Shown piece by piece: positions 9,942-26,474 of a stretch of DNA of 32,322 nucleotides. The notes below the pieces were generated by a model. The model had not been told where the DNA came from. It saw only the letters and a list, made by a program, of their open reading frames with translations, and did no database searches. This stretch comes from Actinokineospora spheciospongiae (GTDB taxonomy: Bacteria > Actinomycetota > Actinomycetes > Mycobacteriales > Pseudonocardiaceae): the NCBI RefSeq assembly GCF_000564855.1, contig NZ_AYXG01000179.1, forward strand, positions 1-32,322, read 5' to 3'. Within the stretch, counting starts at the first letter, position 1. Each line of letters begins with the position of its first letter. Position numbers and translations under genes: made by a program.

Positions 9942-11207
9942 GTGCCAGCACCTTCGACGCCGGGAATCGGCGCGGTCGCCATCTGGAGCACCACCGACCT
10001 GCCCGGCTGGGGTGACCAGGTGCTCGGCCGGGTCGTCGAGCAGGCGCTCACCAGCAGGCTCCCCGGGTGGCGGGCCACCCAGTTCGCCCCCCTCGGCTGG
10101 TCGCGCCCCACCCGCGCCGACGGCGGGATCGCCGCCGAACCGCTGGGCACGCCCACCCCCACCCGCATCGCCGACATCACCGCCTCCGCCGACGCCTCCG
10201 TGCTGGCCCCCGCCGCCCCGCTGGGCACCGACCCGTACGACGGCGAGGCGCCGGGCGTGCGGTTCTTCGACACCCCCGGCGTCGGCCACCCCATCGCCTA
10301 CAGCGGCGTCCGGTTCACCCGCTGCGACGGACCCGTCACCGCCGAGGTCATCGCCGTGCGCGACCAGTCCTCCCGCGAGCTGCTGCGCGCCAAGGGCGTT
10401 GACGCCGAGGTCGTGCCACACCCGGCCATCGCCGTCGCCGCGCTGGTCGACCCCGGCACCTTCGCCGAACGGCTGGTGCAGCTACGCACCCTCGGCCTGC
10501 TCCCCGAGGGCGACTACACCCTCGCCACCAGCCCCGGCCTGGCCGCCGACGCCGTCGAGGTGCCGGGGGACTGGGTGCTGGAGGACCGGCTGGCCGCCCT
10601 GGTCGGCGCCCGCTTGGTGCTGACCGCCGACGAACACGCGGCAGCCGTCGCGGCGGGCATCGGCGCCAACTGGTTGCTGGTCACCGATCCCGGCAGCCCG
10701 GACGCCGCCGTGGTCGCCGAATTCGCCCCACCCGCCCGCATCGCCACCACCGGGCAGCGCACCGTCCCCGAGGGCACCCCCACCTGCGACCCGGCCGCCC
10801 ACGACCGCCTCGCCGCCCACTTCGACCACCTCGCCGCCGCCGTCGAAGCCGCCCGCGCGAACCGCGACGGCGAACTGCACCGCAGGCTGTCCGCTCTGGC
10901 CGGGGAGAACGCCGCCGTGCGAACCGCGCACTGGCGGCTGCGGCAGCGGATGCTCGTCGAACGCCGCCGCGTCACCGAGCCCTACGCCACCGCGGTCCGG
11001 GACCTCGCCGACAGCCGCGCCACCGTCGCCGAGCGGGACGCGACGATCACCGCCCAGCAAGCGCACATCGCCGAACTGGAGCGGACCAACGCCGACCTGG
11101 TTGCCCGGCTCGCCGCCGCCGAACGCGAACTGACCGCCTGGCAGGACACCAAACTGGTCCGCTGGAGCGAACCGCTGCGCCGCGCCTACGGGAAGGCGCG
11201 CGGGTGA
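9942..11207 (+). CDS. Polysaccharide pyruvyl transferase-like, C-terminal coiled coil
   Basis: A 421-residue protein. The first 290 residues carry features of the polysaccharide pyruvyl transferase family: a glycine-rich opening '[16 protein letters not shown]' (about 21-36, compare NxGDE-L in the family) and '[15 protein letters not shown]' followed by 'AEVVPHPA'. Those enzymes transfer pyruvate from PEP to sugars of surface polysaccharides. The match is by motif and moderate. From about residue 290 to 400 a long heptad-rich coiled coil follows, ending in '[17 protein letters not shown]', a tail common in multi-domain surface-glycan proteins. Its stop overlaps the start of the next gene by 4 nt, so the two are translated together and may form a complex. 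Confidence 0.6.
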
Positions 11208-13129
11208 ACACCCCCCGGATCACCTTCGTCCTGGTCACCTACGGCGGCCGGGACCTGGTGCGCACCTGCCTGCGCGCCCTGGCCGACCACACCCCGCAGC
11301 CCTACCGGGTGGTCATCACCGACAGCGCCTCCCCCGACGGCACCGGCGAGTGGCTGACGGCGAACCTGACCGAGGAAACGGTCCTGCGCCTACCGGAAAA
11401 CCTCGGCTTCGGCGTCGGCGGCAACCTCGGCGTCCGCCACGCCGACACCGAGTTCGTCTGCTTCCTCAACGCCGACATCGAGGTCACCGAAGGCTGGCTG
11501 GCCCCACTCCTGGACTTCCTCGACCGCACCCCCGAAGCAGCAGCGGTGTCCCCCCTGCTGCTCAACGCCGACGGCACCGTGCAGGAAGCGGGCAGCCTCA
11601 TCGGCGGCGACGGCTGGTGCCGGGCCTACGACGAACCACGCGAAACACTGTTCGCCCGCGAGGTCGACTACGCGTCGGCGGCGTGCCTGGTGGTGCGCCG
11701 CAGCGCGTTCCACCAGGTCGCGGGCTTCAGCAGCGAGTACGAAATCGCCTACTTCGAAGACGTGGACCTGGCACTGCTGCTGCGCCAAGCGGGCCACCAG
11801 ACATGGGTGCTGCCCTCGGTCGCGGTCCACCACGCCCGACACGGCAGCTCCTCGTCGGCCCGCGCCGAAGAGCTGATGCGCCTCAACCACCGGCACTTCC
11901 TCGACCGCTGGGGAACCGAACTGTCCGACCGCCCACCGGTCGTCGGCCTGGACGCCCACCCGCACCGCCGCTGGTCCCTGCGCGACACCAGCGCCCCCTA
12001 CCGGGTCCTCCTGATCGACGACCGGGTGCCGCAGGCCGACCGAGGCCGAGGAGACCCCCGCACCATGGCGGTCGTCGACGCCTGGCGCGCAGGCGACCCG
12101 AGGGCCAGGGTCACCTTCTTCGCCGCCTCCCCGGAACGGGCAGAGGAATACGCCCCCGCCCTGCAAGCCAGGGGCATCGAGGTCGTCTGGGGAGTGACCG
12201 ACGCCGCCGCCTGGTCCCGAGAACACGCGGGCCTGTTCGACGTGGTGTGCGCGTTCCGCCCACACAACTTCACCGCCCTGGGCAAACCGATCGCCGAATA
12301 CCAACCACAGGCAGTGCTGGTCTACGACTCGGAAGCCCTGTTCCACCGCCGCCCCGCACAACACTTCGAAACCGCCCTCGACGCGGCAGAGCGCCGCCGG
12401 TTCGCCATCGAGGGCGTGCGCCTGCGCAAGGAGGAGGTCGAAGCCTTCACCTGGGCCGACGTCGCCGTCTGCGTCAGCGAGGAAGAGGCCCAGTGGGCCC
12501 GCCGAATCGCCCCGGAAACGCTGGTCCACGTCGCCTGCTACCCGGCCAAGGTCCCCGAAACCGTCCCCGGCCTGGAGGGCCGCCACGGCATCGTGTTCTT
12601 CGGCGGCTTCGACGGCCAACCCCGCACCCCCAACGAGTTCGCCGTCCTCGAACTCGCCGACGAGGTGCTGCCCCCACTGCGCGAACGGCACCCGGACCTG
12701 CGCCTGAGAGTCGTCGGCGCCGACCCGTCCCCCGCGGTCCTGGCCCTGGAAGGCCCGGCGATCACCGTCGTAGGCAAGGTCCCCGACCCGGCCCCCGTCC
12801 TCAGCACGGCCCTCCTGCACGTGGTCCCCATGCGCTACGGCGCAGGCGTGAAGATCAAGTTCGTCGACTCCATGGCCGCAGGCCTCCCCTTCGTCACCAC
12901 CCCAGTCGGCGGCGAGGGCCTGCACCTCGGCTGGACAGCCCGCCACCTGATCGGCAGCTCCCCAGCCGAACTCGTCGACCTCTGCGACCGCCTGCTCACC
13001 GACAAACCACTGTGGACGGACGTGCAGCAGGCCATGCTCGACATCTGCCGCGAACACTTCTCCACCACCCACTTCGCCAACCAAATGCGCGGAGTCCTGG
13101 TCGACTGCGCCATCGCCCCCACCGGCTGA
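11204..13129 (+). CDS. Bifunctional GT2-GT4 glycosyltransferase
   Basis: A 641-residue fusion of two glycosyltransferases. The N-terminal half (about 5-250) is GT2, inverting, rhamnosyltransferase-like: it opens 'ITFVLVTYGGRDLVRTCL', has the metal-binding 'FLNADIEV', and 'YFEDVDLALLLRQAGH' towards the end of the fold. The C-terminal half (about 265-635) is GT4-like, retaining GT-B: 'HGIVFFGGFDGQPRTPNE' and the nucleotide-sugar site 'YGAGVKIKFVDSMAAGLPFV'. It probably adds two successive sugars to a cell-surface glycan at the cytoplasmic face. The GTG start overlaps the upstream TGA by 4 nt, with GGAAGG 7 nt before it. No membrane helix is seen. Confidence 0.88.
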   Translation: MNTPRITFVLVTYGGRDLVRTCLRALADHTPQPYRVVITDSASPDGTGEWLTANLTEETVLRLPENLGFGVGGNLGVRHADTEFVCFLNADIEVTEGWLAPLLDFLDRTPEAAAVSPLLLNADGTVQEAGSLIGGDGWCRAYDEPRETLFAREVDYASAACLVVRRSAFHQVAGFSSEYEIAYFEDVDLALLLRQAGHQTWVLPSVAVHHARHGSSSSARAEELMRLNHRHFLDRWGTELSDRPPVVGLDAHPHRRWSLRDTSAPYRVLLIDDRVPQADRGRGDPRTMAVVDAWRAGDPRARVTFFAASPERAEEYAPALQARGIEVVWGVTDAAAWSREHAGLFDVVCAFRPHNFTALGKPIAEYQPQAVLVYDSEALFHRRPAQHFETALDAAERRRFAIEGVRLRKEEVEAFTWADVAVCVSEEEAQWARRIAPETLVHVACYPAKVPETVPGLEGRHGIVFFGGFDGQPRTPNEFAVLELADEVLPPLRERHPDLRLRVVGADPSPAVLALEGPAITVVGKVPDPAPVLSTALLHVVPMRYGAGVKIKFVDSMAAGLPFVTTPVGGEGLHLGWTARHLIGSSPAELVDLCDRLLTDKPLWTDVQQAMLDICREHFSTTHFANQMRGVLVDCAIAPTG

Positions 13130-15206: not shown

Positions 15207-15243
15207 AACCTGCAGTTGGCACCGAATTAACGACTCCGGACAC
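14890..15243 (-). mobile_element. Truncated IS630-family element
   Basis: The left end of the element (transposase 5' side) is present: the sequence reading inward from 15243 on the minus strand begins GTGTCCGGAGTCGTTAATTC, a typical actinomycete IS630 terminal sequence. The other end and about two thirds of the transposase gene are missing beyond about 14890. IS630 elements insert at TA, and a TA sits exactly at the outer edge, within the stop codon of the neighbouring glycosyltransferase. Confidence 0.7.
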
Positions 15244-18200
15244 TAGCTCGGCGGCGTCAGCGGCGGAATCCGCAGCCGGGCCGCCCGCAGCGCCCGCCGC
15301 CGCAGCGCCGCCGCCAACATCCGACGCTCCGCCCCAGCGGTCACCCGCCCACCGTCCCGGCTCGCCTTGGCCACCGTCGGCAGCAGCGCGCGCACCGACT
15401 GGTCCGCCGCGCTCAACCGCCGCAGCACCGCTTTGGTCGCTTCATCCGCCGTGTCCTCGTTGCGCAGCAACAAAACCCGCGCGTACTGCGCGACCCGGCG
15501 CAGTTCGAACTCGGCCACCACCTCCAGCTCAGCAGCCAGCGCGGGGTCGATGTCGGCGCCGTTGGCCAGCTTCACCAGGGCCAGGCCGGACGGCAGGTCC
15601 TTGTCCAGCCGTTCGTCCTGCCTGCCGGTGACGTTGGTGGAGTGCTGGCGGTAGGAGTGCAGGGGGCGGTCGATGAACTCGATTCGGCCGTTGACCAGGG
15701 CGGTCGCGGCGAACCAGTGGTCGTGGAAGGCAGAGGGGGTGCCGGGGGGCATCGGCAGGGCGCGGTTGAACACCAGGTCGGCGCGGATCAGGGCGGAGGC
15801 GCCGGTGACGGTGTTGAGGAGCAGCAACGACTCCAGGTCGTCCTGGTGGTTGACGCGGTTGAGCCAGAACGAGTCGGCGAGGTGGTTGTCGTGTTCGTCG
15901 ATCAGGCGCATGTCGGCGTAGACGAGTTGCACCTCGGGGTCGGTCATGGGGGCGAGCAGTGAGCTGAGCTTGTCCTCGTGCCAGACGTCGTCCTGGTCGC
16001 AGGGGGCGATGGCGTCGGCGTCGGCGGGGGCGAGTTCGGCGGCCCGGCCGAAGTTGGCGTAGAAGCCGACGTTGTCCTCGTTGGCCACCAGGGCGAACCG
16101 CGGGTCGCCCTGGACGAGGGCGCGGACCTCCGCCAGGGTGTCCTCTGTGGACCCGTCATCGCAGAGGACGCAGAACCAGTTGGTGTGCTGCTGGGCTCGG
16201 ATCGAATCCAGTTGGGCGGCGAGGAACTTGATGTCCGGTTCGTACAGCGCCAGGCACACGGCGACCTTCGGGCCGGTGCCGGTCCAGTGGCCGACCAGCC
16301 GTTCCCGGCTGCTGCCCGGGCGCACCGGCAGCGGCGGCAGGTCGCGGTGCAGGACCGTGCCGTCGGTCAGCTCCACCGCCATCGACAGCGGCACCTCGCG
16401 CGCCGCCGCGGTCCGGACGGCCAGCCGCGCGTGCACACCGCTGCCCTCGGGGGCGCGGACCCCCGCCGCGTGCAGTGCCGCCGACACGTCCGGCCTGCTC
16501 AGCCCGTACTCCGCGGTGACCTCCGCGCCGTCGGCGGTGAACCGCACCGCGCGCACGCCGACCGCGGCGTGCACCACCCACCCGGTCAGCTCGACGACCT
16601 GACCGCGCCCCACCGGCACCGGTTCGGCCGGGACCGGGACGTCGAAGTGCAGGCCGGACTCCCTGGCCCCCGCCGCGGCCCGCCGGTAGCGGGTGGCCAG
16701 GCCCGCGCTCACCACGGGCGACTTGGCGCCGACCCGGCGCAGCACGCCGTCCGACTCCTCCCCGGGGCGGCCCAGCGCCAGGTCGCGCACCCCGCGGGCC
16801 ACGCGGGCGGCGGGCCACAGCGTGCGGTGCGCGCGGCGCACCAGCTTCGAGTTCTCCAACGCCGCCAACCGCAGCGCGGTCCGGGTCAACCGGTCCGACA
16901 GCGACGCCGCGGTGTGCTCGGCCCGCTCCGCCGCGCGGGCGGCCTCGGCGGCGGACTCCCAGGCGGCCCCGGCCTCGGCCACCGCATCGGCGACCTCCTC
17001 GAAGGCCAGCGCCAACCGGTCGTCCATGGTGTCCAGCGCCGAGTTCGCCGACGCCAGCGCGTGCTCGGTCAGCGCGAGCCGGTCGGCCAGCTCGGCCTGC
17101 TCGGCCCGCACCCGCGCCAGGTCCCGCTCGCGGTCCTCGATCACGCCCTGAGCGGCGGCGACGGCCAGGTCCGCCCGGTACCGGCGCTCGCGGTCGGCGC
17201 GCAGCTCGGCCAGGCCGCCGGGGATGCGCCACAGCGGTTCCGGTGGCACCGCGTGCGCGCTCGCGGCCAGTTCCTCGGCGATGCCCGAGGCGTCCCGGCC
17301 GTAGACGGCCTCCTGCAGGCTCGCCTCGGCGGCGAGGAGTTCGTCCCACCGCCGGTCCCGCGCCCCGGTCAACCCGACCAGGTCGCACAGGCCCGCCAGC
17401 ACCTCGTGCACGGTCCGCGCCGACCGCCACGGGTGCTCGGCGGCGCTGCCGACGATCTCCCTGGCGAACTCCACCAGCGCGCGCAGCAGCACCAGCTCCG
17501 CGTCGACGCCCGCACCGGCCCGCCACTCGTCGTCGACGAGGGTCAGCACACCGTCCGCGCCGACGATCAGGTTGCCGGGGTGGGCGTCGAGCCGGTCCGC
17601 GGGCAGCACCGGCACCCCGGCGCGGCCGGGCAGGAACGGGTGCCTCGGGTGCGCGTCGGTCAGGTCCTCCGCACCCTGGGCGCAGTGCTCGCGCCAGGCC
17701 ACCAGCAGCGTGCGGGCCTGGTCGAGGTCACCGGCGCGCAGCGCGTCGAGCACCAGCGCGTCCATGCCCCGACCGGGGACCAGCGGTTCGGCGGCCACCA
17801 CGCGCTGCCGCAGCCACCCCGCCGCACCGCCCTCGCCGCGCACGGTGCGCAGGGTCAGGTCCCCGTCGAGCCGCCGGGACCGCCGCCACAGCGGCAGCCG
17901 GGGGTTCGCGGGCAGCCACGCCAGACCCGCCTCGACGCCCCGGGCGAGCGCCTCCGCGTCGCGGGCGGCGAAGACCACGTACCCCGGCGCGACCGCCGCA
18001 CCGGAGCCGTTCGCCACCGCCAGCCGGTGCGGGTGCCGGGCGGGCACCAGCGGGTCGACCGCCGCCGCGCTGCCCTGCACCGGGTTGCGCACCAGCTTGT
18101 CGACCAGTTCGGCTGCGTCCGGGCGGTCGAACGCGGACTCGTCGAGCAGCACCCTCGGCAGGACCTCGTCCGGGTAGGCCATCAGCGTGCGCCGCGCGGT

Positions 18201-18716
18201 CAGCCCGGCGGCGGCCAGCGACTCGGCCACCGCCGACCGCGACCACGCCCCCGGCCGGGCGGGCGCGCCCAGCACGTGCGCCAACCCCAGTTCGTTGCCG
18301 AACACCAGCACGGCCAGCCCACCGGGGGCCAGCAGGTCGGCGATCCGCTCGTCCGGGCCGTCGGCCAGCACCAGGTCCCAGGTGCCGTCGAGGACCTCGG
18401 CGCCACCGACCACGACCCCCGTCAGGTCCCGGCAGCGCTCCCGCGCCACCGCGGCCATCCCGGCGTCCGGCTCGTACCCGGTGACCACCAGCCCGGCCTC
18501 GGCCAGCGCCCGCAGGAACGCCCCGGACCCGCAGCCCAGGTGCAGGGCCCGCGTCCCGGCGCGCAGCCGCAGCGGGTCCAGCACCCCCAGCCGGGCCGGG
18601 GAGAAGTGCTCAGCCGCTTCCCACGACCGCACCCCGACCGCCAACTCCGACGACCCCGCTGAGACGTCGGTGGCGGCGCGCAGCACCGCCAGCAGCGCGT
18701 TGCTGTGCTCAGTCAT
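15243..18716 (-). CDS. Multidomain methyltransferase/kinase-like/coiled-coil/GT2 protein
   Basis: A 1157-residue protein with an unusual chain of domains. About 35-180: class I SAM methyltransferase-like, motif I LHLGCGSGAF at 58-67. About 220-480: a kinase/aminoglycoside-phosphotransferase-like region with 'LDAHPGNLIV' (376-385) and 'LTLVDDEW' (391-398), the layout of the catalytic and metal loops, probably degenerate. About 500-625: coiled coil ending 'ENSKLVRRAHRTLWPAA'. About 690-800: beta-sandwich-like segment. About 817-1045: GT2 domain with CDDGST (852-857) and the metal site CDQDDVW (906-912). It probably modifies and extends a surface polysaccharide at the membrane. The start is ATG after AGGG, 16 nt past the upstream gene's stop. 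The TAG stop is formed at the IS630 boundary, so the original C-terminus may have been different. Confidence 0.8.
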   Translation of the reverse strand: MTEHSNALLAVLRAATDVSAGSSELAVGVRSWEAAEHFSPARLGVLDPLRLRAGTRALHLGCGSGAFLRALAEAGLVVTGYEPDAGMAAVARERCRDLTGVVVGGAEVLDGTWDLVLADGPDERIADLLAPGGLAVLVFGNELGLAHVLGAPARPGAWSRSAVAESLAAAGLTARRTLMAYPDEVLPRVLLDESAFDRPDAAELVDKLVRNPVQGSAAAVDPLVPARHPHRLAVANGSGAAVAPGYVVFAARDAEALARGVEAGLAWLPANPRLPLWRRSRRLDGDLTLRTVRGEGGAAGWLRQRVVAAEPLVPGRGMDALVLDALRAGDLDQARTLLVAWREHCAQGAEDLTDAHPRHPFLPGRAGVPVLPADRLDAHPGNLIVGADGVLTLVDDEWRAGAGVDAELVLLRALVEFAREIVGSAAEHPWRSARTVHEVLAGLCDLVGLTGARDRRWDELLAAEASLQEAVYGRDASGIAEELAASAHAVPPEPLWRIPGGLAELRADRERRYRADLAVAAAQGVIEDRERDLARVRAEQAELADRLALTEHALASANSALDTMDDRLALAFEEVADAVAEAGAAWESAAEAARAAERAEHTAASLSDRLTRTALRLAALENSKLVRRAHRTLWPAARVARGVRDLALGRPGEESDGVLRRVGAKSPVVSAGLATRYRRAAAGARESGLHFDVPVPAEPVPVGRGQVVELTGWVVHAAVGVRAVRFTADGAEVTAEYGLSRPDVSAALHAAGVRAPEGSGVHARLAVRTAAAREVPLSMAVELTDGTVLHRDLPPLPVRPGSSRERLVGHWTGTGPKVAVCLALYEPDIKFLAAQLDSIRAQQHTNWFCVLCDDGSTEDTLAEVRALVQGDPRFALVANEDNVGFYANFGRAAELAPADADAIAPCDQDDVWHEDKLSSLLAPMTDPEVQLVYADMRLIDEHDNHLADSFWLNRVNHQDDLESLLLLNTVTGASALIRADLVFNRALPMPPGTPSAFHDHWFAATALVNGRIEFIDRPLHSYRQHSTNVTGRQDERLDKDLPSGLALVKLANGADIDPALAAELEVVAEFELRRVAQYARVLLLRNEDTADEATKAVLRRLSAADQSVRALLPTVAKASRDGGRVTAGAERRMLAAALRRRALRAARLRIPPLTPPS

Positions 18717-18732: not shown

Positions 18733-20076
18733 CTAGGCCGCGGGCGGGAACTTCTTGACCTGGTCGGCCACGATCTTGTCGAAAGCCTCCTTGGCCGCTG
18801 CCTGGTCGGGGCCGTAGGCCTCGATCTGCAGGACCACGCCGTCGGCGATGTAGAAGCCGCGGAAGCTGGCGCGCTGGCCGGGGGCCGGGTCGGGCAGCGC
18901 GCGGCCGAGGACGCCGTCGGGCAGCCCGCTCAGCTCGGTGTGGTTGTGGTTGGCGAAGTAGCCGTCGAGGGCGGTCAGCAGCACCTTGGGGTCCGCCCCC
19001 GCGGCGGGCGTGAACGACCACACCGCGCGGACGAGGTCACTCTCCTTGGTGACGTACATGCCGACGTTCGTCACGCCCTGGGCCTTGAGGAACGCGGCCT
19101 CGGCCTCGGTCGGGACCTTGCCCTTGACCGCGGTGTCGATGGTGATGTTCTGGTTGTCCAGCTCGGTTCCGTCCAGCACGACGAACGGCCCCTTGGGCAG
19201 TTTCGGGCCGGTCGGGGTGGCCGGGGCGGTGCTCGACGCCGCGGGCGGGTTCTGGCCCCCGGGGTCCGCGGTGTCCGAGCCACCGGGTTTGAACAGGAAG
19301 AACGCCGTGATGCCCGCGGCCACCAGGACCACCACGGCGGCGATGATGGCGATCTTCTTGCCCTTGCCGCCGCCCCCGGACTCGGTGAAGATCTCCGGGC
19401 CCTGCCGGGGCCAGCTCTGCGCCGAGCCGAAGTCCGGCGGCAGGCCGTCGTCGTTCATCCACGGCGGCGGGCTCTGACCCTGGTTCTGCTGGGGCCGCGC
19501 GGTTTCCCAGGCGGGGCGCGGCTGCGGCGGCGGGAAGTGCGGCTGCCCGCCCATGCCCTGCGGCACGCCGTGGGGGCCGGTGTTCGGGCCGGTGTTCATG
19601 GTGCGGCCGGGCACGACCTGGGTCCGCTCGCCCGCGTCCCCGCCGTTGCCACCGGGGTTGCCCGGGTTGCCGCCCATGGCGCTGCCGGGGACCACCTGGG
19701 TGCGCTCGGCGGACTCGTTGCCACCCGCCTGCTGCGGCGGCTGCTGCTGCTGCCCGGGCACCACCTGGGTGCGCTCGGTGGTGCCCGGCTGCTGCTGCGG
19801 TGGGGTCGGGAAGCCGCCGGAGACCGGAGCGACGATCTGCGTCGACTCCATCGCGTTCGGCGGGGGCGGGGTCGGCGGGGTCGGTTGGGGTGGGGTGGGT
19901 TGGGCCGGGGCAGGCTGGGCCGGGGCGGCTTGGGCCGGGGTCGCCGGTTGCCCGCCCTGGTTCTGGCCCGCAGCCTCGACCATCACGCGGTCGCGGCGCT
20001 GGCGGTACTCGTCGGCGGTCAACTCACCCGCCACCAGCGCGCTGTCGAGCTTCCGCAGCTCGTCTTGCCAGGACAT
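18733..20076 (-). CDS. Membrane protein with Thr-Gln-Val motifs, SHOCT-like N-terminus
   Basis: A 447-residue protein. Residues 1-35 ('MSWQDELRKLDSALVAGEL' and 'EYRQRRDRV') form a short helical SHOCT-like domain. About 36-240 is a Pro/Gln/Gly-rich linker carrying four similar motifs, ESTQIV (Thr79) and three ERTQVV (Thr103, Thr126, Thr152). One membrane helix follows at 241-262 (KIAIIAAVVVLVAAGITAFF), then an extracellular domain of about 170 residues. Database entries of this kind are often named 'FliL-like', but nothing here is flagellar. The motifs place Val at Thr+3, a pattern compatible with FHA recognition after phosphorylation (inference). GGAGG lies 7 nt before the ATG. It is a tandem paralogue of the next upstream gene. 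Confidence 0.75.
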   Translation of the reverse strand: MSWQDELRKLDSALVAGELTADEYRQRRDRVMVEAAGQNQGGQPATPAQAAPAQPAPAQPTPPQPTPPTPPPPNAMESTQIVAPVSGGFPTPPQQQPGTTERTQVVPGQQQQPPQQAGGNESAERTQVVPGSAMGGNPGNPGGNGGDAGERTQVVPGRTMNTGPNTGPHGVPQGMGGQPHFPPPQPRPAWETARPQQNQGQSPPPWMNDDGLPPDFGSAQSWPRQGPEIFTESGGGGKGKKIAIIAAVVVLVAAGITAFFLFKPGGSDTADPGGQNPPAASSTAPATPTGPKLPKGPFVVLDGTELDNQNITIDTAVKGKVPTEAEAAFLKAQGVTNVGMYVTKESDLVRAVWSFTPAAGADPKVLLTALDGYFANHNHTELSGLPDGVLGRALPDPAPGQRASFRGFYIADGVVLQIEAYGPDQAAAKEAFDKIVADQVKKFPPAA

Positions 20077-22131: not shown

Positions 22132-23067
22132 TCATCCCGGCGCGCCTTCCCCGTATTCGGCGACGGACCGTGATCCGCCGAACACCCCGTGCACCAGGGC
22201 CAAACCCATGTCGGCGACGGTGTGGCACACCCGCAGCAACAACCCCACCGCGGTTGCGGCCACCACCCCGAGCGCCGGCCCCAGCACCAGCACCAGCACC
22301 GCCTCCCGCGCGCCCAGCCCGGCCGGGGCGAAGACCACGACCAGCCCGACCAGCCAGCTCAGGGCGAACCCGCTGGTCGCCAGCCCGCCGAGTCGGGCGG
22401 TCGCGCCGGTGAACGGTGCCGCCGCCAGCAGCCCGGCCGCACCGTAGGCCAGCCAGGCCGGGACCATCCACCCCATCGGCCGCAGCAGCGCCGACCAGGT
22501 CAGCGCGGGCAGCCCGCTGTCCTTGCCGAGCCTGCGCACGATGGCGGTGACCACCGCCGGGTGCAGCAGCGGCAGGACCAGCACCGCGGCCAGCCCCGCC
22601 CAGCCGTACCCGGAGAGCAGCCCCCGGTCGGCGAACAGCAACCCGGCGGACACCACCACCGAGGTCACCACGTGCACGGCCAGGAACACCGCACCCGCCA
22701 CCAGCGCCGAGCGGGCGGGCACACCGTACCGGCGGGCGAACCGGGCCTGCGCCAGGAGTGGCCACACCGCGCCCGGCAGGTACTTGCCCACCTGGGCCGG
22801 GAAGAAGATCGTGCGGGCGGCGGCCCAGCCCACCCGGTGGCCCAGCGCGTCCAGGCACCGCCGCCACACCTGCGCCGTCGCCAGCAGCCCGAGCACCACC
22901 AGCGCGAACGCGCCCGCCGCCCGCCACCAGCCGATGGTGCCGATGGCCGCGCCCAGGGCGGGCAGGTCCTCGCGCAGCGCCCAGCCCGCGACCCCCACGG
23001 CCAGCAGCACGAACCCCACGGCCAGCACGTCGGCCGCGCGGACGCGTCTGCCCGCCCCCTCAGCCAC
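22132..23067 (-). CDS. UPF0104 / LPG-synthase-like flippase domain membrane protein
   Basis: A 311-residue polytopic membrane protein with about eight hydrophobic segments. It matches the lysylphosphatidylglycerol synthase transmembrane (UPF0104) family, with the signature 'FPAQVGKYLPGAVWP' (about 90-104) and 'VVFAPAGLGARE' (about 245-256). It lacks the soluble aminoacyl-transferase domain of MprF, so it is the flippase-like half only. Stand-alone members often sit in polysaccharide or glycolipid loci. The GTG start overlaps the end of the upstream methyltransferase by 8 nt, which indicates co-translation. A role in moving a lipid or glycolipid made by the neighbouring enzymes is inference. 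Confidence 0.85.
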   Translation of the reverse strand: MAEGAGRRVRAADVLAVGFVLLAVGVAGWALREDLPALGAAIGTIGWWRAAGAFALVVLGLLATAQVWRRCLDALGHRVGWAAARTIFFPAQVGKYLPGAVWPLLAQARFARRYGVPARSALVAGAVFLAVHVVTSVVVSAGLLFADRGLLSGYGWAGLAAVLVLPLLHPAVVTAIVRRLGKDSGLPALTWSALLRPMGWMVPAWLAYGAAGLLAAAPFTGATARLGGLATSGFALSWLVGLVVVFAPAGLGAREAVLVLVLGPALGVVAATAVGLLLRVCHTVADMGLALVHGVFGGSRSVAEYGEGAPG

Positions 23068-23761
23068 GGCTGATCAACCCGGTCGTCGTCGGGTAGGGCA
23101 GCGCCGGGGTGCCACCGCGCAGGTACTCCACGCGGGTGCCCGGGGTGGTCGTGGCCTCGGCGTAGCGCTTGCGGCGGATGTTGTCGAAGACGACCACCCC
23201 ACCCGGTGCGAGGTGGTCCAGGGCGCGGCGGAAACACTCCACCCTGGCCCGGCCGTCCACCACGACCAGGTCGAACTCACCGCCGACCGCGTCGATGGTG
23301 GCCGCGTACGCGCCGAAGTCCAGGTGCTCGTGCCCGGCCCGCTCGGACCGGACCACCGTCGAGGCGTCGGCCGGGGTGGCGGGCACCGCGTGCAGGGTCA
23401 CGTGCGGCGCGTCGGCCAGCAGCGCCCGCACGTGCCCGGCGAACCCGGCGTCGTGCTCCACGCTGTGCACCTCGGCGGCGCGGCGGGCCAGCCACGCCGT
23501 GCTCGCCCCGGCGCCGAACTCGAACACCCGCGGCGCGTCCCGGCCCGCCAGGAACCGCTCGACCCGGGCCATCGCCGGGTAGCTCCACCAGGCCAGGTCC
23601 AGCCCGGCGAGGTCCACGACGTCGTGCACGGCGAACAGGGTGCGCAGGTGGCGGGCGGTGTGCGCGTCGCTGCTGCCGAGCCGGTCGAGCAGCCCGGTCC
23701 GGTCGGCGAGCCTGCGCGCGGCACGGACCCCGCCGACGTAGGCGCCGCGCAGCCCGCTCAT
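23060..23761 (-). CDS. Class I SAM-dependent methyltransferase
   Basis: A 233-residue methyltransferase-fold protein. Motif I is 'FEFGAGASTAWLAR' (about residues 80-93), 'EVHSVEHD' follows as the acidic strand-2 end, then 'EFDLVVVDGRARVECF' and 'LAPGGVVVFDN' (motifs IV-VI). This wording is typical of methyltransferases found beside glycosyltransferases. The ATG start overlaps the stop of the upstream GT2 gene by 4 nt (ATGA), so the two are coupled. The likely target is a sugar or glycolipid of the same pathway; the exact substrate is unknown. Confidence 0.85.
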   Translation of the reverse strand: MSGLRGAYVGGVRAARRLADRTGLLDRLGSSDAHTARHLRTLFAVHDVVDLAGLDLAWWSYPAMARVERFLAGRDAPRVFEFGAGASTAWLARRAAEVHSVEHDAGFAGHVRALLADAPHVTLHAVPATPADASTVVRSERAGHEHLDFGAYAATIDAVGGEFDLVVVDGRARVECFRRALDHLAPGGVVVFDNIRRKRYAEATTTPGTRVEYLRGGTPALPYPTTTGLISRG

Positions 23762-24693
23762 CGGCTGTCCGTCCGCTCGGACACCAGCTCGCGCACCTCG
23801 TCGCGCCGGGCGGTGCGGTGCAGCAGGATCTCCGCGATCAACCCGAACGACACCATCTGCACGCCCAGGATCACCAGCAGCACGCCCAGGTTGAGCAGCG
23901 GTCGGGTGCCGATCGGGTCGGCGGTGAACAGCCACACGCCGGTCAGGTACAGCAGCACCAGGAACCCGGCGGCGCCGAACAGGAACCCGATCCCGCCGAA
24001 CAGGTGCGCGGGCCTGCGGCCGTACTTGGTGATCGTCACGACCGTCATCAGGTCGATCGCGCCGCGCACGTACCGCTCCAGCCCGTACTTCGACACCCCG
24101 TGCGCCCGAGCCCGGTGGTTCACCCCCAGCTCGCTCACCTTGTAGCCCTGCTGGTGGGCCAGCGCCGGGATGTAGCGGTGCAGCTCCCCGTAGAGCGGCA
24201 CCCGGCGGTAGACCTCGGTGTCAGCGGCCTTGAGCCCGCAGTTGTGGTCCTTGAGCGGCAGCCCGGTGATCACCCCGGCCACCTTGTTGAACACCTTCGA
24301 CGGCAGCCGCTTCGACAGCGGGTCCTTGCGGTCCACCTTGTGCCCGCTGACCAGGTCGACCCCGGTGTCCAGCTCGGCCAGCAGCCGCGGCACCTCGGCC
24401 GGGTCGTCCTGGAGATCGGCGTCCATGGTGACCACCCGGCGCCCGCGCGCCTCGGACACCGCCGCGGCCAGCGCCGCCGCCTTGCCGAAGTTGCGCCGCA
24501 TCCGCACCGCGCGCACCGCGGGCCTGGTCGCGGCCAACTCGCACATGATCTTCCAGGAGCCGTCGGTGCTGCCGTCGTCGACGAAGATCAGCTCGTAGTC
24601 GACGCCGTGCAGCGCCGCCGCGACCTCGTCGGCCAGCGCCGTCAGCGTGGCCTCCTCGTCCTTGGCCGGGACGAGCACACTCACCTCGGTCAC
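23758..24693 (-). CDS. GtrB/ArnC-like polyprenyl-phosphate glycosyltransferase
   Basis: A 311-residue GT2 enzyme. The catalytic half has 'VSVLVPAKDEEATL', 'FVDDGSTDGS' (about 38-47) and the metal-binding 'MDADLQDDP', with 'HNCGLKA' further on. Two C-terminal membrane helices (about 228-250 and 262-285) complete the dolichol-phosphate-mannose-synthase/GtrB/ArnC architecture. Such enzymes move a sugar from a nucleotide onto polyprenyl phosphate at the inner face of the membrane, making a donor for GT-C transferases outside. The adjacent polytopic protein, coupled by a 4-nt overlap, is a candidate user of that donor. Confidence 0.9.
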   Translation of the reverse strand: MTEVSVLVPAKDEEATLTALADEVAAALHGVDYELIFVDDGSTDGSWKIMCELAATRPAVRAVRMRRNFGKAAALAAAVSEARGRRVVTMDADLQDDPAEVPRLLAELDTGVDLVSGHKVDRKDPLSKRLPSKVFNKVAGVITGLPLKDHNCGLKAADTEVYRRVPLYGELHRYIPALAHQQGYKVSELGVNHRARAHGVSKYGLERYVRGAIDLMTVVTITKYGRRPAHLFGGIGFLFGAAGFLVLLYLTGVWLFTADPIGTRPLLNLGVLLVILGVQMVSFGLIAEILLHRTARRDEVRELVSERTDSR

Positions 24694-26396
24694 CGCTCAC
24701 CCCCACTTTCCGGTTCGGTGGGCATCCACAGCATCCGCCCGCTCGCGCGGACGAACACGACCCTGGTCTGTTCCGCCGCCGTCGGCCCCACCACCGCGAA
24801 CCCGGTGTGGTTGGACAGCCAGTTCAGCTCCGCCCGCACGTCGGTCCGGATCTGGTCGACCATCCCGCCGCCGACCACCACGCCCGCGCCGTCGACCACG
24901 ATCGCGCAGCGGATCGGGTCACCGACGCCGCTGGCCCAACCGCGCACGACCACGGCGCCCGCGAGCTCGGTGCTCTCCTCGACGAAGCCGGACGGGTCCT
25001 GCTTGCGGCTCTTGTCCGCCGCCGCCACCCGCTCGGCGGAGCCCACGTCGACCCGGTCACCCAGTTCGGGGCCGCCGCAGCCGAGGGTGAAGTCCGGGGT
25101 GAAGGGGTAGTGGCCGATCCGGGGGAGCAGTTCCCGCATCTCCTTCCCCTCCGGCATGGTGGTCGGGTAGGCATCGGTCAGGCCCGCCCGCAGGGCGATC
25201 GCCTGCAGCGGCACCTCGCGCATCTCGTTGCGCAGGCTGATCGCCGTCGGCACGCCCAGCGCGAACCCGAGGGCTCCCGCCGCGACCGCCGCCACCGCCA
25301 CCCGCGGGGTGTTCGCCCACGACCGCCGCACCAGCACCGACCCCGCGATCACCAGCAGCGGCACCGCCATCAGCACCGACTGCGAGGTGTAGCGGCTGCT
25401 CAACCCGTAGTCGGGGCCGAAGTCGATCCGCGCGACGCCGATCATCGCGCAGGCCAGCAGCGCGTGCAGGGCCAGTGCCCACCACACCCGCAGTTCCGGC
25501 GCCCGCGCGCTCCGGGTGGTCAGCAGCAGTCCGTACCCGACCAGCACCGCCATGCCTGCGACAACGGCCATCCCCGCGTTGTTCGCCGTCCACAGGTGAC
25601 CGACGGCGGACAGGAACGTGTACAGCGCCTGGCTCGGGTCGCTGCCCGGCGCCTGGTCCGCCCCCGCCCCGGGGTACGCGATCTTCCAGACGACGAAGAC
25701 CGCGGCCAGGATGACCAGCGGCACCACCCGCTTCCACACGGCCTCCCGGCGCACCCAGGCGAACCAGGCCAGCGCCACCCACACCGGGAAGGCGGTGCCG
25801 TAGGACAGGCAGGCCACCAGCCCGACCACCCACGAGCCCACCCACCAGCCCCGCCTGGCCAGCAGCAGGGTCAGCACGACCAGCAGGTTCGCCGTCAGCC
25901 AGGCCATGCCGCTCATCGACCGGACGAAGTTGTGCAGCCCGTGCGGGCTGAACAGCAGCGCCGACGCGGCCACCACCAGCCCGGCCCGCGCCACCGGGGG
26001 CAACGACCTCGGCAGCGCCGCCCGCAACGCCAGCACCGTGAGCACGACCACGGCGACGACCACGCAGCCCAGCGTCCGGTTGTCGCCGTGGGCGACCAGC
26101 ACGTTCAGCCAGTAGAACAGTGCGGGCAGGGCCACCGGGTGCTCGTTGCGCAACACGAAGAACCCGCCGACGTCCAGCGAGGCGTCCGGGTTGTAGAAGT
26201 TGAGCAGGATCGTCCAGTAGTCCAGGAATTGCAGGTGCGGCCCGTTCAGCACGTCGAGCAGGGTCGCGGCGATCGGGAGGAGGGCGAGCAGTTCGAGCGC
26301 CCACAACCAACGCGCAGACCGGGCGGCCCCCGTCGTCGGAGGGACTTCAGCGGTTTCGGTCACGGGTGGCGGATCGCTTTCGTGTTCGACTGACAC
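24690..26396 (-). CDS. Polytopic membrane protein, possible GT-C transferase
   Basis: A protein of about 568 residues with roughly ten hydrophobic helices and a soluble C-terminal part of about 170 residues. The first extracellular loop region contains '[11 protein letters not shown]' and '[18 protein letters not shown]'; acidic residues in this loop are where GT-C enzymes keep their catalytic base. The architecture and its place directly before a GtrB-like gene suggest a polyprenyl-phosphate-sugar-dependent transferase, but no clear family signature was recognised. GTG at 26396 was chosen because a TAGACT -10 box at 26414-26419 would place transcription start inside any longer frame; GTG at 26363 is an alternative. 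Neither has a good ribosome-binding site. Confidence 0.65.
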
Positions 26397-26413
26397 TTTC
26401 GGGTGCGAAGCGC

Positions 26414-26419
26414 AGTCTA
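26414..26419 (-). promoter_or_regulatory. -10 box for the minus-strand glycan block
   Basis: TAGACT on the minus strand, 17 nt before the GTG at 26396. It would start a transcript with a leader of about 10 nt. It stands back to back with the divergent promoter at 26475. Confidence 0.35.
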
Positions 26420-26474
26420 GGGAGGGCAACCGCGCGTGTGTTCGGAACGGTCAGTGCCGGTCGCGGGCGCGGGT

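Follow-up and report, generated by a model that had tools for sequence, protein, structure and literature searches.

A candidate O7 ORF6-type polymerase-terminator with a partly degenerate methyltransferase domain in Actinokineospora spheciospongiae

The window analysed here is the whole stretch of 32,322 nucleotides of contig NZ_AYXG01000179.1 of Actinokineospora spheciospongiae (Pseudonocardiaceae; assembly GCF_000564855.1). On its minus strand, positions 15243-18716 hold an open reading frame that runs uninterrupted from ATG to stop and encodes a protein of 1157 amino acids (aa). From the N- to the C-terminus the protein is arranged as a methyltransferase (MT), a kinase-like region, a predicted coiled coil, a beta-rich domain and a family 2 glycosyltransferase (GT2). 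An earlier reading of the same DNA (the original prediction), which left the strand unstated, had described the protein, the motifs HPGNLIV (residues 379-385) and LVDDEW (residues 393-398) and the order of the domains, and all of these were found to be real. The neighbouring minus-strand gene (18733-20076) stops 16 bases ahead of the ATG, so there is little room for a missed N-terminus. No transmembrane (TM) segment was found in the protein by a simple hydropathy scan. The features of the gene, with the evidence for each in brackets, are the following:

15243..18716, minus strand: whole gene, MT, kinase-like region, coiled coil, beta domain and GT2, 1157 aa (open reading frame and homologues)
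18132..18716, minus strand: class I MT domain, residues 1-195, partly degenerate (Pfam, alignments, rates)
18522..18536, minus strand: GCGSG glycine loop for binding of S-adenosylmethionine (SAM), residues 61-65 (G61 and G63 align with G91 and G93)
17217..18131, minus strand: APH-like kinase region of the ORF6-O7 type, residues 196-500 (alignments, profile comparison)
17586..17588, minus strand: D377, putative catalytic Asp of LDxHPGN (its aligned counterparts are D351 of WbdD and D443 of the Pseudomonas protein P0003, the latter regarded as equivalent to D441 of ORF6-O7)
17532..17534, minus strand: D395, DFG-equivalent Asp of VDDEW (alignments, profile comparison)
16851..17216, minus strand: predicted coiled coil, a spacer or ruler, residues 501-622 (periodicity)
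16794..16847, minus strand: amphipathic stretch, residues 624-641, basic and with a proline (moment 0.77, no control run)
16272..16655, minus strand: mostly beta domain, residues 688-815 (structure model)
15612..16271, minus strand: GT2 glycosyltransferase with DDGS, DQDDVW and HDHW, residues 816-1035 (Pfam, alignments)
15243..15611, minus strand: C-terminal region, residues 1036-1157 and stop (accompanies the GT2 domain in homologues)

Of 150 genomes, 16 had a match to the protein at E ≤ 1e-40, counting the genome of the window itself; they represent nine of 79 genera, all in the window's family. All parts were kept in a single reading frame in 15 of the 16 matching proteins, one of these (L049) being cut at the C-terminus by a contig end and two (L037 and L051) having a shortened MT. 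The domain order is therefore not due to chance, and the capping-type module, predicted coiled coil and GT2, which the original prediction had placed in one chain, do occur together in these 15 proteins, so that the domains are not split in every homologue within the family. Among the genomes of the same genus the gene was present in two of 16. The sole relative among the named genomes, that of Actinokineospora bangkokensis, was 72% identical over residues 1-1156.

In a sample of the phylum, nine of 396 genomes (own included) matched the whole protein at E ≤ 1e-30, and the eight non-self matches all began at residue 651 or later, covering the beta-GT2 part only. When the kinase profile was compared with the same 396 genomes, four matches were found, the window's own included. 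A stand-alone MT-kinase protein that appeared convincing by eye (L081, 298-2133) was located beside an rmlD-like gene in an actinobacterial genome of 1.4 Mb. A diverged stand-alone relative (L080, 448-2289) came from a different family of the same order; its catalytic Asp seems by eye to be absent, and the kinase may be dead. The match in L082 was read by eye as chance. Positions 40-852 of L082 contain the repeated peptide GLRVGRGLEP in one frame, which suggests a CRISPR-like repeat array.

Pfam gave only chance-level matches for residues 200-500 and 690-815 of the window protein. When 11 kinase-region sequences were searched alone, the best E value was 0.18, and APH (PF01636) was matched neither by the window protein nor by any of the 11 regions. 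By sequence, nothing in PDB matched the kinase region below E 0.049, and among the matches listed for the protein (60 of 93) all lay in the MT or GT2 parts. The profile of the family was compared with an APH profile for which the same genome supplied 13 stretches of the APH family, used just as they were retrieved and not picked by motif. The score was 33.9-34.7, with at most 18.2 for 100 column shuffles and at most 17.0 for 15 other profiles compared with the APH profile. The alignment covers 21 columns, in which D377 falls on the catalytic Asp of APH and D395 on its DFG-type Asp. A score of 44.7 obtained with nine motif-picked APH sequences was biased by the picking and was not used.

The residues D377, H379, P380, N382, D395, E397, W398 and D405 were invariant in 15 of 15 copies, including the copies with a decayed MT. 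In a Pseudomonas relative the motif reads IDVEW, with the Asp kept, but Glu replaces D395 in a Citrobacter relative, so this residue is not universal outside the family. The alignments and profiles support an APH-like catalytic core in the middle region. To this extent the APH/kinase-like reading of the region in the original prediction holds. The accompanying argument that LVDDEW marks an inactive kinase fails, because D377, N382 and D395 are invariant in all 15 copies, D395 sitting at the position of the DFG-type Asp.

Relatives outside the family were found by comparing the MT-kinase half of the homologue L034 with 72,556 plasmid records. Two annotated proteins were detected, one of Pseudomonas asturiensis (WP_024686765, P0003; 33% identity over 80% of the query, E 6e-29), with which the L034 half is co-linear, and one of Citrobacter braakii (WP_326979343; 39% identity over 41% of the query, E 2e-25). 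The P. asturiensis gene comes after ATP-binding cassette (ABC) permease and ABC ATPase genes. The Citrobacter protein is a stand-alone MT-kinase, and its gene comes after rml, IS630 transposase, ABC permease and ATPase genes. In pairwise BLAST, where the search space of two proteins is tiny, all 15 family copies matched both proteins, 11 of them with E values of 3e-28 to 2e-49. The four copies with a decayed MT matched P0003 more weakly (window 8e-18 over residues 3-405, L032 3e-17, L051 5e-16, L037 1e-15).

The P. asturiensis protein has Y28, Y66, G91, G93, E112 and Y158 at numbers identical to those of the SAM-site residues published for ORF6 of Klebsiella O7 (ORF6-O7; GenBank MN173773.1; PMC11231755). 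According to the same source (Kelly et al.), ORF6-O7 consists of an MT, an unannotated domain like the amicoumacin kinase AmiN, an immunoglobulin (Ig)-like domain, a coiled coil and two GT2 modules. It acts as a chain terminator, as shown both in vitro and in vivo, by adding phosphate and then methyl to the terminal rhamnose, and the phosphorylation is abolished by D441A (PMC11231755). The window protein resembles it in the MT, the AmiN/APH-like kinase region without a Pfam match, the coiled coil, a probably Ig-like domain and the C-terminal GT2, the SAM-site and kinase signatures having been compared by way of the P. asturiensis protein. Unlike ORF6-O7, it has one GT2 module instead of two, an MT that looks impaired, no wzm/wzt in the window and an actinobacterial host. 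The beta domain comes after the coiled coil in the window protein, whereas that of ORF6-O7, which may be of another family, comes before it.

In the MT half, Pfam Methyltransf_11 was matched above the cut-off at residues 58-118 (E 3e-6). The window protein keeps G61, G63 and E82, equivalent to G91, G93 and E112, and the other three SAM-site residues are gone. Both in it and in the A. bangkokensis protein there is no equivalent of Y28, the Y66 position is E or A (E in the window), and the Y158 region and the conserved segment EDHHGxxWxGLADYP are missing. In L037 and L051, which belong to another genus, the region with the glycine loop is lost instead, and the MT of L052 has drifted too. At least five of the six SAM-site residues are kept in 10 of the 15 copies, and position 158 is Y in six and H in five of the 15. 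Among the homologues whose MT is intact are L034 and L046.

Identity in the MT and in the kinase was compared for eight pairs. The five pairs with an intact MT had MT/kinase identities of 72/58, 68/54, 96/92, 96/96 and 100/97%. The MT was less similar than the kinase in the window pair (69 vs 74%), in the other decayed pair (61 vs 79%) and between the window and L034 (51 vs 53%). For the MT of the window pair the ratio of nonsynonymous to synonymous substitution rates (dN/dS) was 0.47, so this domain is still under some constraint. The tree built on the kinase and beta-GT2 columns requires two changes to explain the four decayed copies, a single change being compatible with 0% of 200 bootstrap trees. 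The limit of the same tree is that the starred branches alone, five of the 12 inner branches, permit a single change. The decay of the MT has apparently taken place separately in two genera, and the MT of the window's genus looks impaired. Signs of decay are thus seen in the MT, where SAM-site residues and a segment have been lost, and not in the kinase, which the original prediction had taken as possibly inactive.

The decay could also mean that the MT and the kinase are both relics, the coiled coil, the beta domain and the GT2 being the working parts. Consistent with this are the decay of the MT in four of the 15 copies, its drift in a fifth (L052) and the apparent lack of the catalytic Asp in the stand-alone L080. 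The sixteenth family protein (L054, 1078-2886) also fits, as it is a natural variant of 603 aa without MT and kinase. Its N-terminal MDxADGA, the same as in L038, is directly followed by the coiled coil, the beta region and GT2 being kept, and by its sequence it is a natural loss of both domains. With the kinase residues invariant in all 15 copies, those with a decayed MT included, and with kinase dN/dS values of 0.43 and 0.38 for the two pairs whose MT has decayed, this explanation is nevertheless very unlikely.

The coiled-coil region has 4-7% Gly and Pro, and 15 of the 16 sequences had a hydrophobic period between 3.50 and 3.56 residues (scan 3.3-3.8). In the window protein, residues 501-622 are poor in Gly and Pro, and the best period is 3.54. 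The 3.5 period was reached by at most five of 500 shuffles in only seven of the 16 sequences and by 20 of 500 shuffles of the window copy, so that the support from the period is weak for this copy taken by itself. The length from residue 497 to residue 638 was 135-167 residues across the 15 kinase-bearing copies. Within residues 601-690 the amphipathic moment peaks at residues 624-641, a possible membrane contact.

Structure models were built from two-row alignments, consisting of the window and one related locus. The model of the beta domain, of medium confidence (pLDDT 60.9, pTM 0.60), has nine strands and one short helix, and the modelled domain is probably an Ig-like sandwich. A fold search of PDB with this model gave no match at E ≤ 0.001. 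Chains of SoxYZ and of sulfite oxidases/dehydrogenases came out best, none of them reaching this limit, and the part of these chains that matches we take to be their Ig-like domain. Pfam Fer2_4 was matched by the beta region below the cut-off (E 0.11). The GT2 domain matched Glycos_transf_2 above the cut-off at residues 830-980 (E 2.5e-18), and D853, D854, D907, D909, H998 and D999 were kept in all 16 sequences.

The original prediction had suggested that the protein may be an analogue of the WbdD type, known from Escherichia coli O8/O9a. WbdD has the same order of MT, kinase and coiled coil. The MT profile of the family aligns with the WbdD MT (P 4e-7), and D377 aligns with D351, a ligand of a Mg ion and part of the substrate model (PMC3482155). 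Against the WbdD kinase the profile of the family alone scored 24.9 (P 0.008), aligned in the catalytic loop region only, and the profile extended with three outside relatives 31.5 (P 7e-4), with at most 17.8 in 12 context families used as controls. A strict WbdD-type terminator with the eukaryote-like kinase of WbdD is still highly improbable. BLAST of the 15 copies reached the MT core of WbdD at best (best E 2e-9), whereas the O7-like proteins align over both domains. The authors of the O7 study describe the ORF6 type as distinct from WbdD, the two kinases differing in sequence and structure, and WbdD as having no glycosyltransferase but recruiting WbdA (PMC11231755), whereas the window protein has its GT2 in the same chain. 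The module resembles WbdD in outline and, as judged from the profiles, shares a long-range kinase core with it, but the MT-kinase pair goes with ORF6-O7 and is filed with that type. Of the comparisons with WbdD, APH and GT2 that the original prediction had proposed, GT2 was found as expected and APH was absent by Pfam; the WbdD kinase scored above the controls, as noted, for the catalytic loop region.

The fusion of capping and polymerase functions is already known from Klebsiella O7 ORF6 and O12 WbbB (PMC11231755). WbbB resembles the window protein in that a single chain with a coiled coil combines polymerase and terminator. It differs in its cap, 3-deoxy-D-manno-oct-2-ulosonic acid (Kdo) added by a glycosyltransferase, and no MT or kinase is named in the text on it (PMC11231755). 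The beta and GT2 unit was also present in a plasmid protein of Shinella sumterensis (WLS12026.1, P0004), with 38% identity over residues 690-1031. This protein begins at the beta domain, so it is without the MT, kinase and coiled coil that precede it in the window protein, and it has WsaF-type domains at its C-terminus. Next to its gene lie genes for an ABC permease and for rhamnan synthesis F, and the latter is a hint that the donor sugar may be rhamnose. No report of such a protein in actinobacteria or Pseudonocardiaceae was found in the literature searched, and the main text of PMC11231755 includes neither 'actino' nor 'Gram-positive'.

The families of neighbouring genes were identified by gene calling by GC content at third codon positions (GC3) over nine loci. 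The main gene was called in nine of the nine, F0 in eight, F8 in six, and an AlgX-like, acyltransferase-like protein and F12 in five each. The shared flanking families were, as judged from 20 neighbours read by eye, housekeeping genes; Pfam scans covered the genes of the window and a few others. The neighbours in the window are as follows:

11204..13129, plus strand: GT2-GT1 glycosyltransferase F12, partner gene, 641 aa (orthologue search)
10026..11207, plus strand: product weakly similar to polysaccharide pyruvyl transferase, with a coiled coil at its C-terminus as read by eye (start tentative)
18733..20076, minus strand: F0, proline-rich single-TM protein, immediately upstream (weak SHOCT match below the cut-off)
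24690..26429, minus strand: F8, polytopic membrane protein with about 10 TM-like segments, GT-C-like by eye (no Pfam match)

When 61 genomes were searched for F12, close orthologues (E ≤ 4e-116) turned up in exactly the seven with the main protein, and the ten further matches were distant (E ≥ 5e-84, 32-34% identity). The gene at 10026-11207 sits directly before the GT2-GT1 gene. The match of its product to pyruvyl transferase had an E value of 0.02, and that of its homologue in genome G036 0.0025, both below the cut-off; to judge from these similarities, the product is possibly a second cap or decoration enzyme. F8 was present in 12 of the 61 genomes and does not track the main protein. Positions 22132-24693 of the window encode an LPG_synthase_TM protein (about six TM segments), a Methyltransf_24 protein and a GT2 with two C-terminal TM segments, F8 being next in the row. 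The row from LPG_synthase_TM to F8 resembles a set of lipid-linked donor synthase, transporter and GT-C for glycan decoration outside the membrane.

With moderate confidence, and by analogy with the Klebsiella protein, the main protein is interpreted as an ORF6-O7-type polymerase-terminator that acts on a lipid-linked glycan of the cell envelope and caps its end with phosphate; phosphorylation, chain-length control, polymerisation and the identity of the cap are what we infer from this likeness. The C-terminal GT2, probably with the nearby GT2-GT1 protein, would add sugars, and the coiled coil and the amphipathic stretch would keep the N-terminal module off the membrane-side polymerase. Only a sufficiently long chain would reach this module, where the APH-like kinase would phosphorylate the non-reducing end and growth would stop. 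In the ancestral form the MT would then have methylated the terminal phosphate. Because the MT looks impaired in this genus, the cap would probably be phosphate alone, or methylation would be weak.

Several observations weigh against this interpretation. The assignment of the window kinase to the O7 type is made by way of the homologues: when the window protein was compared with the plasmid records, the P. asturiensis protein was matched at residues 3-251 only, the kinase region remaining unmatched, and the window kinase region alone matched P0003 only at residues 371-405 (E 0.002). The link to ORF6-O7 itself is made through residue numbers and published text instead of a sequence alignment, and D441 of ORF6-O7 lies two residues before the aligned D443 of the P. 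asturiensis protein, an offset taken as a short indel. The likeness of the family to APH is limited to the 21 columns round the catalytic loop, and the score of the extended profile with the WbdD kinase and the loss of both domains in L054 also weigh against the interpretation. The structure model of the kinase region was poor (pLDDT 48.5), and its PDB fold search (best E 0.24) was not used; its top 50 matches included several protein kinases, all with a probability of at most 0.14, which is not evidence. Of the two regions for which the original prediction had proposed a fold search, the beta region was thus mostly beta as expected, and the kinase region gave nothing usable.

The export system is a further difficulty. 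No Wzm-like permease was found on the window contig, and no cap-reading ABC exporter in the gene cluster, the window contig and the own genome having been scanned. The single Wzm-like match elsewhere in the genome was weak (E 0.06) and adjoins a 268-aa ABC ATPase, which by eye would be a Wzt without the length for a cap-reading domain. By eye it also adjoins DprE1-like and UbiA-like genes, and this region resembles that of arabinogalactan export.

The missing exporter would suit an alternative in which the N-terminal module decorates internal or side residues with phosphate or methylphosphate without stopping growth, the coiled coil being a scaffold for the glycosyltransferase complex. The locus also has other decorating enzymes, the AlgX-like acyltransferase and the coiled-coil protein with weak similarity to pyruvyl transferase. 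Such a role is, however, unlikely, as the nearest characterised relative is a chain terminator in the published tests, and the position of the module, distal to the glycosyltransferase across the coiled coil, is the layout of the known terminators, in which the module lies at the far end of the coiled coil from the glycosyltransferase (PMC11231755).

The polymerase-terminator interpretation can be narrowed, tentatively and with more doubt than trust, to a phosphate-only terminator: the MT would have decayed in two actinobacterial lineages with the kinase left intact, and a Gram-positive envelope glycan would be polymerised, measured and ended with no Wzt reader. If this were true, bare phosphate would join methyl (O8) and methylphosphate (O9a, O7) as a third kind of cap chemistry, and the decay of the MT gives a clear prediction on the chemical end group. 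The setting of length by ruler and cap is known from Gram-negative polysaccharides exported by ABC transporters. Here the setting of the candidate O7-type cap module is a conserved locus of one actinobacterial family, and such a module in an actinobacterial locus would extend the ruler-and-cap principle to an envelope without lipopolysaccharide and without an obvious cap-reading exporter.

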